IMG/VR virus record: IMGVR_UViG_3300030450_001307
Span: 1-46,209 of that record
Source: a virus
DNA length: 46,209 nt
Reading direction: 5' to 3' (one strand)
In this document: positions 35,292 to 45,240 of the stretch, one piece after another
Layout: every line of letters starts with the position of its first letter
How positions within the stretch are numbered: position 1 is the stretch's first letter
The notes under the pieces: generated by a model
What the model was told of the DNA's origin: nothing
Databases searched by the model: none
The model's input: only the letters and a program-made list of their open reading frames with translations
Program-made: the position numbers and the translations under genes

Positions 35292-36578
35292 TTATATATA
35301 GAACTCCAAAGCTCTATAATCTTCTTTCTGTTCTGTGTTGTAGAACTTAGTTAATCTAGATCGAACATAGTTTGTAGTTTCTACTCCTAGCCTAAGATAT
35401 CTAGCAAAGTTACCAAAGGTTAGATTACGTTCCTCTATTATATGCTGAAGAGTCTTAATGTATCTATGCTTGGATATTATATTGTCCATATCATCCTCTC
35501 TACAATATGTCGATAATAGCTTACCAGTATCTACAATCTTCTGACATATAGTAATCCAATTATGTATCTTTATTGGATTAAGAGTGCCAGAGTGATACCT
35601 AAACTCTATAGAGCCGTTAATAATCCTAGAGTGCATATTCATACCACAATATCTAGCATCATTATACTTATCGTAAGAGGGGTAAGCTCCCCAAGCTTGA
35701 TACCAAGAGTTTATAAACTCTTCACTACTATCTATACTCAATATCTGTTCTCTACTTAAAGGTATTCTCCTTGCCCATCTAGTAGTTACCCTAGAGGGAG
35801 GCATCATCTTATAGATAATGTCTTGAGCAGACTTACCTAATAGTAGAGTCCATTTCAAGTCTTGATAGTCTAGGTCTCTAGCATCAACGTGTACGTGTAG
35901 ACCACAGCTTTTATTTATATAGTAGAATCCACTATTTAGATAACGAAGCATAGTATCTATAGACGTTCTCATAACGTCTCCTTGCATAGGTCTTTTCATA
36001 ACCCACTCTACACCTCTATCCTCTTCAAACTCTCCTACGTTAATACTACCATCGCTAACTGGTCTGAATCTAGGAGAATATTCTAATTCTCCATTATCAA
36101 TCATCTCCCAGAAATCACTATGGTTAGTGACACATTCTATCTCCAATCCTATATGTCTATCAGATTGTCCTTCTAATATACTTCCGTCTACCATCTCTTT
36201 TACATTGTAACTCTCTAAGTCTACATCATCTCCATCTCCTGGGTCACAATTCTCACAGTAATACTCTTCAGCACGTTCTCTCCATATAAGATCGTCTCTC
36301 CAACTATCTTCTCCACATTCAGAACAGCAACCTATGTAATCGTGATAGCAATCCTCGCAATATAGCATATCTCCATAATGTTGAGATTGTTCTATTGGGA
36401 AGTCATCATTACAACTTTCACAATAGAAGGTATGCTCTCCATAACAATCATCACATAGAGTCTCCATTCCATTTATATTTGTAGTATGTTTTAAGGAATC
36501 TGCTCCGTTGGTGAACTCATCCTCGCAACAATCACAACTATAACTTTCTTTTTCTTTGTTTATTTCAGACATAGACAC
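35292..36578 (-). CDS. Zinc-ribbon-fused amidoligase (Amidoligase_2)
   Basis: 428 aa. Residues 15-111 have six Cys pairs (C15, C42, C53, C74, C85 and C108 with their partners), i.e. about three zinc ribbons. Residues 143-355 are an ATP-dependent carboxylate-amine ligase of the glutamine-synthetase-like fold: GLEIEC (144-149), SDGSI (175-179), CGLHVHVDA (225-233) and GMNMHSRIINGSIEFRYHSG (312-331). It should join an amine or ammonia to a carboxylate. Amidoligase_2 genes are known to neighbour class II glutamine amidotransferases, as here (36868-38034). The substrate is unknown; the ribbons may bind DNA, RNA or a protein target. Confidence 0.85.
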   Translation of the reverse strand: MSMSEINKEKESYSCDCCEDEFTNGADSLKHTTNINGMETLCDDCYGEHTFYCESCNDDFPIEQSQHYGDMLYCEDCYHDYIGCCSECGEDSWRDDLIWRERAEEYYCENCDPGDGDDVDLESYNVKEMVDGSILEGQSDRHIGLEIECVTNHSDFWEMIDNGELEYSPRFRPVSDGSINVGEFEEDRGVEWVMKRPMQGDVMRTSIDTMLRYLNSGFYYINKSCGLHVHVDARDLDYQDLKWTLLLGKSAQDIIYKMMPPSRVTTRWARRIPLSREQILSIDSSEEFINSWYQAWGAYPSYDKYNDARYCGMNMHSRIINGSIEFRYHSGTLNPIKIHNWITICQKIVDTGKLLSTYCREDDMDNIISKHRYIKTLQHIIEERNLTFGNFARYLRLGVETTNYVRSRLTKFYNTEQKEDYRALEFYI

Positions 36579-36581
36579 CTC

Positions 36582-36896
36582 CTAAGCTATTCCGTGATTA
36601 GTAGTAACCATATAGAAAGACAGATAGTTCTTCTCTCTAAGCCAACCTATTCTCTTTAATGTATCGAATATGTCTTTTGGCTCTAAAGATTTAACCTTTA
36701 TGTTTTCCATATCTATCATTCTATCAGCTAGAAATTTGATATAATGTCCAAACGATCGAGTGTCTGTAAAAGGGTTGCTCTTAGCTTTTTTATAGAGCTT
36801 ACGCAATGCCTCTTCTTTTGTCTTGTATCGTATTGGAGATTGTATACCAACTATCATAGCTACCTTCTTAGAGCTGAAAGGATGCTTGTTCTTCAT
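36582..36896 (-). CDS. Linker gene between amidotransferase and amidoligase
   Basis: 104 aa, basic, with KTKEEALRKLYKKAKSNPFT and FGHYIKFLADRMIDMENIKV. It overlaps the amidotransferase gene by 29 bases and ends 3 bases before the amidoligase, so the three are co-translated. Possible substrate, substrate carrier or adaptor of the system. No family recognised. Confidence 0.55.
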   Translation of the reverse strand: MKNKHPFSSKKVAMIVGIQSPIRYKTKEEALRKLYKKAKSNPFTDTRSFGHYIKFLADRMIDMENIKVKSLEPKDIFDTLKRIGWLREKNYLSFYMVTTNHGIA

Positions 36897-38034
36897 CGTA
36901 ATCTCCTTTCATATAGAAGTCATCTACATAGCATTTCTCACACAGATACTCGTCATTAGCTTTGTATGTGTCTCCCTCTGTAGAATCACAGCTACCACAA
37001 TTTATACCATCTTTCATAGCCTCTTTGATATCTAACTCTGAATTTACTTTGTATTCACAATCATAACAGATATAAGATTTCTTATCTTCGTTATAGATAA
37101 TCTCTACGTAATCAACTTTCTTATTGCAAGAGTCGCAATCTATTGTTTTCCAATCTTCATAGTGGTCACTATATCCAAACGTATTATAGTTGTAATTGTA
37201 ATTACGACTATTCTCCATAATATAGTTAGCTTCTAGAGAATTGGTTACATAAGACTTCTCTTCGTAGACAAGTTCTTTATCTGTAAACTTATGTGTATTA
37301 AATGTGTATAACTTATCCACATCTAGTGTATGTATCTCTTCAGTATATAGAGACCAGAGCTCATCGTATATATAAGCTGTACCCTTACCATCATCTTCCT
37401 CTATACACGCATCTTCTATAGCTGATTCTAATATCTCTTTTGTAGAGGCATAGAATAAAACTCTAGCTTCACTCCAGTATACATAATGACAAGGTCTACC
37501 ATCTTCTCGTAATAGATGCAATGTGTTCTTATTGTCTCTAGTCCAAGCCAATGCGTAGTCTCCATAGATTTCATCTAGACATTCTTGTAGGTTATTGTTG
37601 GCATCAAATAGAGCAAACACAGCCTCAGAATCTACCTCGTATACTCTCTTTTTGTTTACGGATATATCCTCGTGATTGAAAATCATTCCATTATGAGTTC
37701 CAATAATAGAGCCGCAGTTAAAAGGATGAGCATTTCTTAGAGACTTGCTTCCGTGAGTAGCAAACCTAGTATGACCTAGGACTACTGACGATTCCAAGCT
37801 TATCTCTGGTACGATCTTTCTCTTCCAGTCTTTACTCTTAACAAAATTACTAGACTTCTTTAGAGACTTAAAGATTAAAGGATTCTTACACTCGTCTATA
37901 ATAGCTATCCCAGTAGAGTGTGTACCTCTAATCTCTGACTCTATAAGTAGATTCTTCATAATCTGCCTTATAACTCCTAGTTGCTCTGGAGTCTGTGCGT
38001 TGCTCTGCTTTGCAAAGCCTGCTATACCACACAT
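36868..38034 (-). CDS. Class II glutamine amidotransferase fused to zinc ribbons
   Basis: 388 aa. C2 in MCGIAGFAKQ is the Ntn-hydrolase nucleophile after Met removal. GTHSTGIAI, LGHTRFATHG (R90) and GTHNGMIFN (N115, G116) with D135-S136-E137 are the other conserved sites. It should release ammonia from glutamine, presumably for the amidoligase. The C-terminal 90 residues hold two zinc ribbons (C300/C303 with C323/C326, and C346/C349 with C365/C368). No synthase or isomerase domain is fused, unlike PurF, GlmS or AsnB. Confidence 0.88.
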   Translation of the reverse strand: MCGIAGFAKQSNAQTPEQLGVIRQIMKNLLIESEIRGTHSTGIAIIDECKNPLIFKSLKKSSNFVKSKDWKRKIVPEISLESSVVLGHTRFATHGSKSLRNAHPFNCGSIIGTHNGMIFNHEDISVNKKRVYEVDSEAVFALFDANNNLQECLDEIYGDYALAWTRDNKNTLHLLREDGRPCHYVYWSEARVLFYASTKEILESAIEDACIEEDDGKGTAYIYDELWSLYTEEIHTLDVDKLYTFNTHKFTDKELVYEEKSYVTNSLEANYIMENSRNYNYNYNTFGYSDHYEDWKTIDCDSCNKKVDYVEIIYNEDKKSYICYDCEYKVNSELDIKEAMKDGINCGSCDSTEGDTYKANDEYLCEKCYVDDFYMKGDYDEEQASFQL

Positions 38035-41563: not shown

Positions 41564-42205
41564 TTACCATAGAATACTTTTTAATATTTCTTTACAAAGC
41601 TCATAAGGAACTTTACTTTTTCCATAATAATCATTAGGCTGGAATCCTTGTATGCCAGTTTCACTTGAACCTCTTGGAGAAGATTCGTGACAACTATCTC
41701 CTGGGCTACACATTTGCCTTGGAATCCAATCAGCATTAGTCCATATATCTGTTGGCTTCATAACCTTTTCTCCATACTGACAATAAGTAACAGTTTTCAT
41801 TATATAAGGATCGATCAAATTCAACTTCCTTAATTTGCCACGAGGATTTTCAATAATATAAATAAGATTAGGATTCTTCTCTTTTATAAGATTGATTATC
41901 TCTACTGTCTTTTCTACTAGCTTAACTGCTTCTTTTGCCTTTTCTGTCTTTGGAGTATTATCTTTATTCCAATGCAATCCAATAGAAGCTACACTAAAAC
42001 ATTCACAAGGAGGAGATGCCCAAACAATATCTGGATATCCTTTTAAAGCATCAACTGCTTTTAAAATATTAAAATCAAATATGTCACAAGTAAAATCTAT
42101 ATCCTCAGAATATTCACAATCAGTAGAATAGGTCTGCAACGCAAAACATTCAGCCGCTTTAGAAAAACTTCTTGTACCAGCAAATAACTCAAGAACCTTT
42201 TTAAT
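41564..42205 (-). CDS. Short C5-cytosine DNA methyltransferase (ATT start)
   Basis: 213 aa from ATT 42205. Motif I is LELFAGTRSFSKAA (residues 5-18, SAM binding), motif IV is ASPPCECFS with catalytic C67, motif VI is IIENPRG (E119). A TAG lies just before the ATT, AAAGGA lies 8 bases upstream, and the first possible TTG (42139) would delete motif I, so ATT is the only start that keeps the SAM site. The family usually has over 300 aa; a clear target-recognition domain is missing. It may protect phage DNA from restriction. It lies behind a leftward promoter at 42310-42338. Confidence 0.78.
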   Translation of the reverse strand: MKKVLELFAGTRSFSKAAECFALQTYSTDCEYSEDIDFTCDIFDFNILKAVDALKGYPDIVWASPPCECFSVASIGLHWNKDNTPKTEKAKEAVKLVEKTVEIINLIKEKNPNLIYIIENPRGKLRKLNLIDPYIMKTVTYCQYGEKVMKPTDIWTNADWIPRQMCSPGDSCHESSPRGSSETGIQGFQPNDYYGKSKVPYELCKEILKSILW

Positions 42206-43936: not shown

Positions 43937-43944
43937 GTATATTG

Positions 43945-44709
43945 ATGATTACTAGAAAAATAAATAAGATTAATCATCCTATATATGAAGATATGGGAGA
44001 GTTTGAGAAATACAATCCTGGTATTGATGTTATTGAAAACTGGAGAGATGGAACTGAAGGCGATTGGATAGTTTCAGATGATGGTCAAGTTTGTCAAGTC
44101 TTGAAACGTGGTGAACTTAAAGCTTCAAAGACATCTAACAATCTTAAATATTATATTAGGATTCCATTAGGAACATTTGTTTGTAATGATAAAACAAGAA
44201 TAGAGGGAGAACCTAGAAAGAACCTTTATTCTTTTGGCTTGGCTAATAAAACAGTCTGGAATCACAAGATTGAAAAAAAGGAAACTACGCACAGAGAGTT
44301 TCTTTTTGCTCAGTTTGTTGCTAAGGGCGACAATATAGTGGATTCTTTTGTTAAGGCATACCCAACCAATAACAAAAAGTATGCTAAAGGTCAAGCCAAA
44401 ATACTTATGAAAGCAAAAAGGATACAAAAATTGATTAGAGAAGAAATAGATAAAGTACTTACAGAGGCGGATATTACTCCTTTGTATTTATTAGAAGAAA
44501 TGAGATCTATTGTTGACAACAGTCAGTCTCAAGATAAAGACAAAATACAAGCTATTAAAACATTAATGCAGATTAGTGGAATGATGGACACAGAAAAAAG
44601 AAGTGAGTCTGTTGCTGTATTCCAAGGATTTACAAAGGAACAATTAAATGCCATCGGATCTGGAGAGGTCAAGCAAATTGCAGAAGCTAACAAAGAAGTT
44701 GAAGTCTAG
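43945..44709 (+). CDS. terS: Small terminase subunit
   Basis: 254 aa. LFAQFVAKGDNIVDSFVKAY and KAKRIQKLIREEIDKVLTEA, then TPLYLLEEMRSIVDNSQSQD and KIQAIKTLMQISGM are the HTH and oligomer helices of small terminases. It should bind the pac site and load the large subunit. The N-terminal 100 residues are an extra domain with beta pattern (DGTEGDWIVSDDGQVCQVLK), longer than usual. ATG 43945 has almost no leader. The TTG 3 bases earlier is an alternative. Confidence 0.8.
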   Translation: MITRKINKINHPIYEDMGEFEKYNPGIDVIENWRDGTEGDWIVSDDGQVCQVLKRGELKASKTSNNLKYYIRIPLGTFVCNDKTRIEGEPRKNLYSFGLANKTVWNHKIEKKETTHREFLFAQFVAKGDNIVDSFVKAYPTNNKKYAKGQAKILMKAKRIQKLIREEIDKVLTEADITPLYLLEEMRSIVDNSQSQDKDKIQAIKTLMQISGMMDTEKRSESVAVFQGFTKEQLNAIGSGEVKQIAEANKEVEV

Positions 44710-44872
44710 TTATTGTGTACTATGTGGGAGTAAGTTATTTCCAACTGCCTATATAATACAAAACTTAGATAGTGACTTAATATACGTTGAATGTATGAGC
44801 TGTATGACTATATATGATAATAATTTAGAAATAGATTCTGTTGGCTTGCCAGCAGTTCACGGAGTAAGTTAA
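44699..44872 (+). CDS. Small zinc-ribbon protein between the terminase genes
   Basis: 57 aa from TTG 44699; an ATG at 44648 would overlap terS by 62 bases. YCVLCGSK and ECMSCMTI (two CxxC) form one ribbon. The stop overlaps the ATG of the cyclotransferase-like gene, so the two are co-translated. Unknown function; could help terminase or the modification genes. Confidence 0.55.
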   Translation: MKSSYCVLCGSKLFPTAYIIQNLDSDLIYVECMSCMTIYDNNLEIDSVGLPAVHGVS

Positions 44873-45240
44873 TGAGTAAAGAGAGAAATATAAAACTAGC
44901 TGTCTATGGTACACTTAGAAATGGATCAGAAAATACTGGTATGGTTGAAAGGTCATCTCTTGTATATCCTGGACATAAAAATTTTCCAGCTGTTATTCAA
45001 AACGATAAAGGAGCTGGAACCGTTGTTGAAGTCCATAATGTTTCAGAAGAAGACTTATCAAGATATGATATGTATGAAGGAGTAGACTCTGGGCTGTATA
45101 GAAGAGTAATGGTGCAAATTCAAATGGATAGTGGAGAAGAAGAAGAGGCGTGGATGTATGTAGCTGGAGACGAGATGATGCAAAGAAGTAACTCTTTTAG
45201 AGTTATAGAAAGTGGAGATTGGTACAATAGAAAACTTTAA
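44872..45240 (+). CDS. Gamma-glutamylcyclotransferase-like protein
   Basis: 122 aa. VYGTLRNGSENTG has the YGTLR substrate loop (12-16), and RYDMYEGVDSGLYRRV has the catalytic Glu (E69) of the GGCT/AIG2 fold. Enzymes of this family release gamma-glutamyl groups as 5-oxoproline. Here it could remove or edit the group that the amidoligase/amidotransferase pair adds. It lies between the terminase genes, 7 kb from that pair, but in the same genome. Confidence 0.75.
   Translation: MSKERNIKLAVYGTLRNGSENTGMVERSSLVYPGHKNFPAVIQNDKGAGTVVEVHNVSEEDLSRYDMYEGVDSGLYRRVMVQIQMDSGEEEEAWMYVAGDEMMQRSNSFRVIESGDWYNRKL

Follow-up and report, generated by a model that had tools for sequence, protein, structure and literature searches.

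Genes for amidoligases and amidotransferases have been noted in phages for more than 15 years without a known substrate. The same question is raised by a locus in the stretch of viral DNA analysed here (46,209 nucleotides; hereafter the window), in which a class II glutamine amidotransferase (GAT) and an Amidoligase_2 enzyme (AMID), both bearing zinc modules, lie on either side of a gene for a 104-aa protein (MID). Phage cassettes of GAT, amidoligase and gamma-glutamyl cyclotransferase (GGCT) are a prediction of Iyer et al. 2009, taken up again in PMC5498523 and PMC10580990. Published guesses at their role, which trace to Iyer et al. 2009, are a peptidoglycan change against superinfection or the synthesis of a small molecule (PMC5498523, PMC10580990, PMC11318856). 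In the portions of this literature covered here, we found no report of activity for such phage enzymes, and amidoligase and zinc ribbon were mentioned together only in other contexts. The first-pass annotation had proposed an undescribed modification system in which ribbons hold both enzymes on a common macromolecule. We find that the observation is real and conserved, and was partly misread.

Results

Three genes on the minus strand of the window

The three open reading frames of the annotated cassette were confirmed, with Pfam matches for GAT and AMID. Their features are:

36868-38034, minus strand: GAT, class II glutamine amidotransferase, 388 aa (PF13522, E = 2.7e-15)
37420-38034, minus strand: catalytic part of GAT, residues 1-205
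36922-37146, minus strand: C-terminal zinc modules of GAT, four CXXC, residues ~297-371, net charge -11
36582-36896, minus strand: MID, 104 aa, basic (+12), predicted alpha-rich fold, candidate new family
35292-36578, minus strand: AMID, Amidoligase_2, 428 aa (PF12224, E = 6.6e-18)
35529-36161, minus strand: ligase domain of AMID, residues 140-350
36237-36545, minus strand: N-terminal LIM-like zinc modules of AMID, three, six CXXC, residues 12-114, net charge -24

The MID gene overlaps that of GAT by 29 nt and lies 3 nt from that of AMID. The GAT protein begins with M-C, so that Cys2 is the predicted nucleophile, and in addition to PF13522 (GATase_6) it matches PF13537 (E = 2.1e-9). The CXXC motifs lie at residues 300, 323, 346 and 365 of GAT and at residues 15, 42, 53, 74, 85 and 108 of AMID, whose PF12224 score is 65.9 bits against a curated cut-off of 22. 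Exonuclease and annealing-protein genes adjoin the cassette.

Elsewhere in the window, a 191-aa ORF (41564-42139), apparently truncated or TTG-started, matches part of phage DNA methyltransferase families. The two ends of the contig (1-318 and 45892-46209) are nearly identical over ~318 bp and cut the terminase gene TerL in two; although the collection detected no end repeats, the genome in this record is probably close to complete, at ~45.9 kb.

The cassette is conserved across a family of uncultivated phages

Scans of IMG/VR gave approximately 100 related contigs, near-duplicates being counted in the layouts that follow. GAT and AMID are adjacent, or split by MID alone, in ~100 contigs. The commonest layout is AMID1 (~600 aa)-GAT-MID-AMID2, found in 54 contigs; 25 contigs carry GAT followed directly by a long AMID (~580 aa), and 19 share the GAT-MID-AMID order of the window. 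In three further contigs called as AMID-GAT-AMID, MID is there and was overlooked by the ORF caller only. The recurring order agrees with the single operon originally annotated, and the search for the three genes in other phages recovered them as a core set; the set itself needed amending, as MID is missing from one sub-group and a second amidoligase usually lies upstream.

The annotation was to fall if the neighbourhood proved unconserved or the active sites decayed, and it withstands this check. The neighbourhood is conserved, and the catalytic residues checked are invariant: in GAT, C2 (the proposed nucleophile) and the glutamine-pocket residues R90, H103, N115, G116 and D135 are each identical in 61/61 sequences, and E146, E148, D176, H228, H230, R263, R309, N314, H316, E325 and R327 of AMID are also invariant, in both paralogues. 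The GS/GCS-like motifs of AMID (E-x-E, H-x-H, R and E-x-R) are intact, and PF12224 is matched by 68/68 relatives. Because the cysteine pairs of AMID are invariant or nearly so in these 68 relatives and the GAT-AMID order recurs in ~100 contigs, both the cassette and its cysteine pairs are conserved far beyond chance. When contigs were chosen by terminase, the amidoligase was present in 20 of 23, and in all nine of those of at least 40 kb; the family terminase is at most ~31% identical to terminases of named phages. All parts of the cassette, together with the GGCT described below, are thus core genes of one large uncultivated phage family.

Comparison of the window with its nearest relative, locus L001, gave dN/dS below 1 everywhere. 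Identity is 93% in GAT and 50% in the ribbon region (36237-36545), and dS rises from 0.15 in GAT to 0.96 in the AMID ribbons, likely through recombination at the start of AMID. As the jump in dS points to recombination, we do not take the faster divergence of the ribbons as selection.

Several further features of the family were observed. Contigs 3300030708_000851 (80 kb; L006/L023) and 3300030101_002855 (64 kb; L047/L054) each contain the entire set twice, with GGCT and in diverged versions, and represent a junction of two members of the family, made in nature or during assembly. In 38 loci (e.g. L055 2148-2567), the gene directly preceding GAT or AMID1 encodes a PF03013 pyrimidine-dimer DNA glycosylase, which was not seen in the window. 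The amidoligase paralogues carry extra domains, N-terminal in AMID1 (~200 aa; e.g. L044 2736-3350) and C-terminal in the long AMID (~180 aa; e.g. L011); hhalign showed no relation of these to MID or to each other, and there is no Rosetta-stone evidence of a MID fused within either enzyme.

A cyclotransferase lies in the terminase operon

A component overlooked by the earlier annotation is a GGCT elsewhere in the window, which belongs to the same theme:

44872-45240, plus strand: GGCT, gamma-glutamyl cyclotransferase, AIG2-like, 122 aa (PF06094, E = 1.2e-15)
43942-44709: TerS, neighbour of GGCT
from 45212: TerL, neighbour of GGCT

Its profile match (44899-45225) scores 58.6 bits against a cut-off of 22.8, and both the YGTL loop and the D-x-Y-E motif with the catalytic Glu are conserved. 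PF06094 was matched in 46 of 50 records, comprising 45 of 49 family contigs and the Arthrobacter control. In all 20 loci examined in full, GGCT is flanked by the two terminase genes, and it stands beside TerL in 67/67 loci picked by terminase alone that had sufficient upstream sequence. It belongs to a separate operon and could act independently of GAT and AMID.

Relation to described phage cassettes

As in the window, a class II GAT, an Amidoligase_2 and GGCT are found in one phage in the phiEco32-like, PSA-HP1 (Pseudoalteromonas) and Laroyevirus phages. All three share one region in Arthrobacter phage Waltz, MW202615 and E. coli phage Bas86; the last two additionally encode an ATP-grasp protein and another COOH-NH2 ligase. 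Unlike the enzyme of the window, the amidoligases of Waltz, Ottawa, MW202615 and Bas86 have no CXXC zinc modules, and cassettes of the Iyer type have no MID. Classic cassettes are contiguous, whereas the GGCT of the window sits between TerS and TerL and not beside GAT-AMID. The PF14395 COOH-NH2 ligase of phiEco32-type cassettes was found in none of 49 family contigs, with the control record positive, and is ruled out as a missing partner. By gene content, the window phage belongs to the GAT-amidoligase-GGCT theme, but it departs from the classic cassettes in contiguity with GGCT and in PF14395. The claim of a system undescribed as a kind is therefore not supported; the MID family and the ribbon-defined sub-type are what survive of it. 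What is new here is not the chemistry but the acidic, LIM-like zinc modules, the basic MID and the duplicated ligase, and earlier descriptions of such phage enzymes seem to mention neither zinc docking modules nor a small partner.

Ribbon-bearing pairs occur outside the family

We examined 58 amidoligase loci in 291 genomes from the class to which Ruminococcus callidus belongs (Clostridia). Triple-module amidoligases made up 17 of them, and in 16 a class II GAT is adjacent downstream, the 17th being cut off by the end of its contig. The other 41 amidoligases are plain: no GAT lies within ~4 kb of any of them, and ten or more occur with GGCT. These data support the ribbons as the probable mark of a distinct amidoligase sub-type. 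The Clostridia pairs (Ruminococcus callidus and others) share with the window the six-CXXC N-terminal module, at much the same spacing, and the adjacent GAT; they differ in the order AMID-GAT, in a GAT usually without ribbons and in having no MID. Their flanking genes vary, and in several cases include those for a serine recombinase and DUF960, a hint of mobile elements.

In Mycobacterium phage Marvin (gp105-gp106), an amidoligase bearing CXXC modules at its N-terminus has directly behind it a GAT that bears them at its C-terminus. Here the similarity is remote only, the amidoligase comes first, its N-terminal module is shorter and no MID was found nearby. In the OM43 phages MEP401 and MEP402 an amidoligase and a GATase are adjacent (MEP401 gp05-gp06; PMC10580990), but the module, unlike that of the window, is a single CXXC pair in mid-protein. 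A module-bearing amidoligase/GAT pair was also found in MW202733. On a Mycobacterium paragordonae plasmid (L395), a CXXC-module amidoligase is followed by a GAT-profile ORF with C-terminal CXXC modules, in a Marvin-like arrangement.

The zinc modules are acidic and LIM-like

Strong acidity marks the modules of AMID2, of the long AMID, of the GAT tails and of Clostridia, and those of AMID1 are near neutral; per 100 residues, the net charge is ~ -22 in AMID2 modules and ~ -15 in GAT tails. The best PDB matches of the AMID module profile, although weak, are to LIM and RING domains. Among 68 relatives, seven match LIM (PF00412) at E < 0.01, and a Clostridia homologue (L278) scores over the curated cut-off, but the AMID of the window itself gives no match. 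LIM likeness speaks for a putative role in protein docking and against nucleic-acid binding, and the strong negative charge likewise disfavours DNA or RNA as the ligand. Of the common macromolecules once proposed for the ribbons, protein remains in keeping with these properties, while DNA, RNA and the ribosome do not.

Ribbons are present on both enzymes in the window, as annotated, but those of GAT range from none to three modules across the family. With 25 members having none or a single CXXC, they are dispensable. MID accompanies every ribbon-bearing GAT (76/76) and is absent otherwise (0/28; 25 family members and three outgroups). In a quick tree, the long AMIDs that go with the GAT-AMID layout fall into a single clade, so that this co-occurrence probably reflects one evolutionary event. 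The tree also splits phage and Clostridia ribbon amidoligases into two groups, yet a single origin was not rejected (p-AU 0.37), so that the link between ribbons and GAT gains no support from independent pairs. It amounts to an association that is consistent over deep divergence, yet of only one or two origins, and neither this link nor that of MID with ribbon-bearing GATs counts as statistically independent evidence.

MID appears to be an undescribed family

MID has 73 homologues in the family, usually basic, with charges from -3 to +14. Pfam, PHROGs and NCBIfam held no convincing family for it, and PADLOC likewise gave nothing convincing. Its AlphaFold model (pLDDT 75) had no convincing fold match in the PDB, and one match in BFVD, to a viral protein model (E = 3.9e-4), was uninformative. 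Assignment to a known family was accordingly rejected, and MID appears to represent an undescribed one. The two enzymes, considered as a defence system, were without a PADLOC match.

Predicted folds and proposed chemistry

The model of AMID has a mean pLDDT of 91. Residues 119-413 superpose on YbdK (Z 13.0, rmsd 4.3 over 236 residues), and the fold also matches glutamate-cysteine ligase (Z 12.7), glutamine synthetases (Z 10-11) and PafA/Dop, in line with a carboxylate-amine ligase. GAT resembles GlmS most closely, with a weak match to EgtC (TIGR03442, E = 8.5e-6). Cumulatively, these findings suggest that the cassette encodes a conserved pair that probably uses glutamine nitrogen to form amide bonds on an acid-bearing target.

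From these data we infer a possible order of steps. GAT would hydrolyse glutamine and hand the ammonia to the GS/GCS-type amidoligase, which would phosphorylate a carboxylate with ATP and convert it to an amide. The acidic LIM-like modules on the amidoligase, and on GAT where present, would tether one enzyme to the other and hold a protein or peptide substrate in place, with basic MID bridging the acidic modules in lineages that have a ribbon-bearing GAT. The second amidoligase of most relatives may form a second, related bond, and GGCT, supplied from the packaging operon, may trim or recycle gamma-glutamyl-amide products as 5-oxoproline. The target would most likely be a cell-envelope peptide or a host or virion protein, and not nucleic acid. 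The spread of MID charge and the near-neutral ribbons of AMID1 weaken the idea of an electrostatic bridge. To the scheme as a whole, a docked, glutamine-fed GAT-AMID complex that forms amides on a carboxylate of a peptide or protein, with MID bridging and GGCT processing, we give about an even chance.

Discussion

The main rival concerns the chemistry. EgtC and BtrG-type enzymes take off gamma-glutamyl groups, and glutamate-cysteine ligase attaches one. The amidoligase might thus add a gamma-glutamyl group to an amine as a protecting or regulatory tag, to be removed by the GAT-fold protein and GGCT with no use of free ammonia, in which case GAT may be a gamma-glutamyl hydrolase instead of an ammonia donor. 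The nearest solved folds of AMID (YbdK and glutamate-cysteine ligase), the weak EgtC match of GAT and the constancy of GGCT as a partner agree with such a cycle, as does the frequent pairing of plain amidoligases with GGCT and without GAT (Clostridia; Geobacillus phage GR1). Glutamine is itself a gamma-glutamyl amide, so motifs cannot separate the two chemistries. Given that GAT is nearer GlmS than EgtC, and that a single system would hardly need two unrelated enzymes to take off gamma-glutamyl groups, we consider the tag cycle unlikely, though a serious contender. A comparably tentative place goes to envelope modification for superinfection exclusion, in which peptidoglycan stem peptides would be amidated or cross-linked during infection. 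It is compatible with our preferred chemistry, GS/GCS ligases and GGCT suit gamma-glutamyl peptides, and it is the published hypothesis for related podovirus cassettes (PMC5498523, PMC10580990); against this, we found no supporting experiment in the literature covered here, the LIM-like docking modules are left unexplained, and the PF14395 partner of phiEco32-type cassettes is absent (0/49).

Two other readings are considerably less probable. The genes might be independent metabolic genes, fixed as neighbours in one phage lineage without a joint complex, and synteny within one family could indeed be inherited linkage; that the ribbon-amidoligase/GAT pair recurs with different flanks in the unrelated phages Marvin, MEP401 and MW202733, and in elements of Clostridia, makes this improbable. 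Zinc ribbons bind nucleic acid in some other proteins, and exonuclease and annealing-protein genes lie beside the cassette, so that hypermodification of DNA or nucleotides, such as amidation of a carboxylated base by enzymes tethered through their ribbons, also comes into consideration. The ribbons are strongly acidic, however, the neighbours are merely conserved early genes of the family, and the window proteins that were scanned revealed none recognisable as base-carboxylating, thymidylate-synthase-like or deazaguanine-related; we regard this reading as the most improbable of all.

The pairing of ribbons with GAT splits amidoligases at large into a GAT-paired kind, probably docked, and a plain kind that is often paired with GGCT. 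As a ribbon-bearing pair is present in the cultured phage Marvin (M. smegmatis) and a cassette in Bas86 (E. coli), the old question of their substrate becomes directly testable. More speculatively, and we advance it as a possibility we would not yet bet on, these enzymes may form an unrecognised amidoligase sub-type, in which the LIM-like triple module docks the ligase to a glutaminase and a protein target, with MID as adaptor and often with two ligases, and by which phages of several unrelated lineages would modify a protein side chain or C-terminus in the course of infection. If this is true, the LIM-like docked sub-type would be a phage protein-modification system with a zinc docking module.
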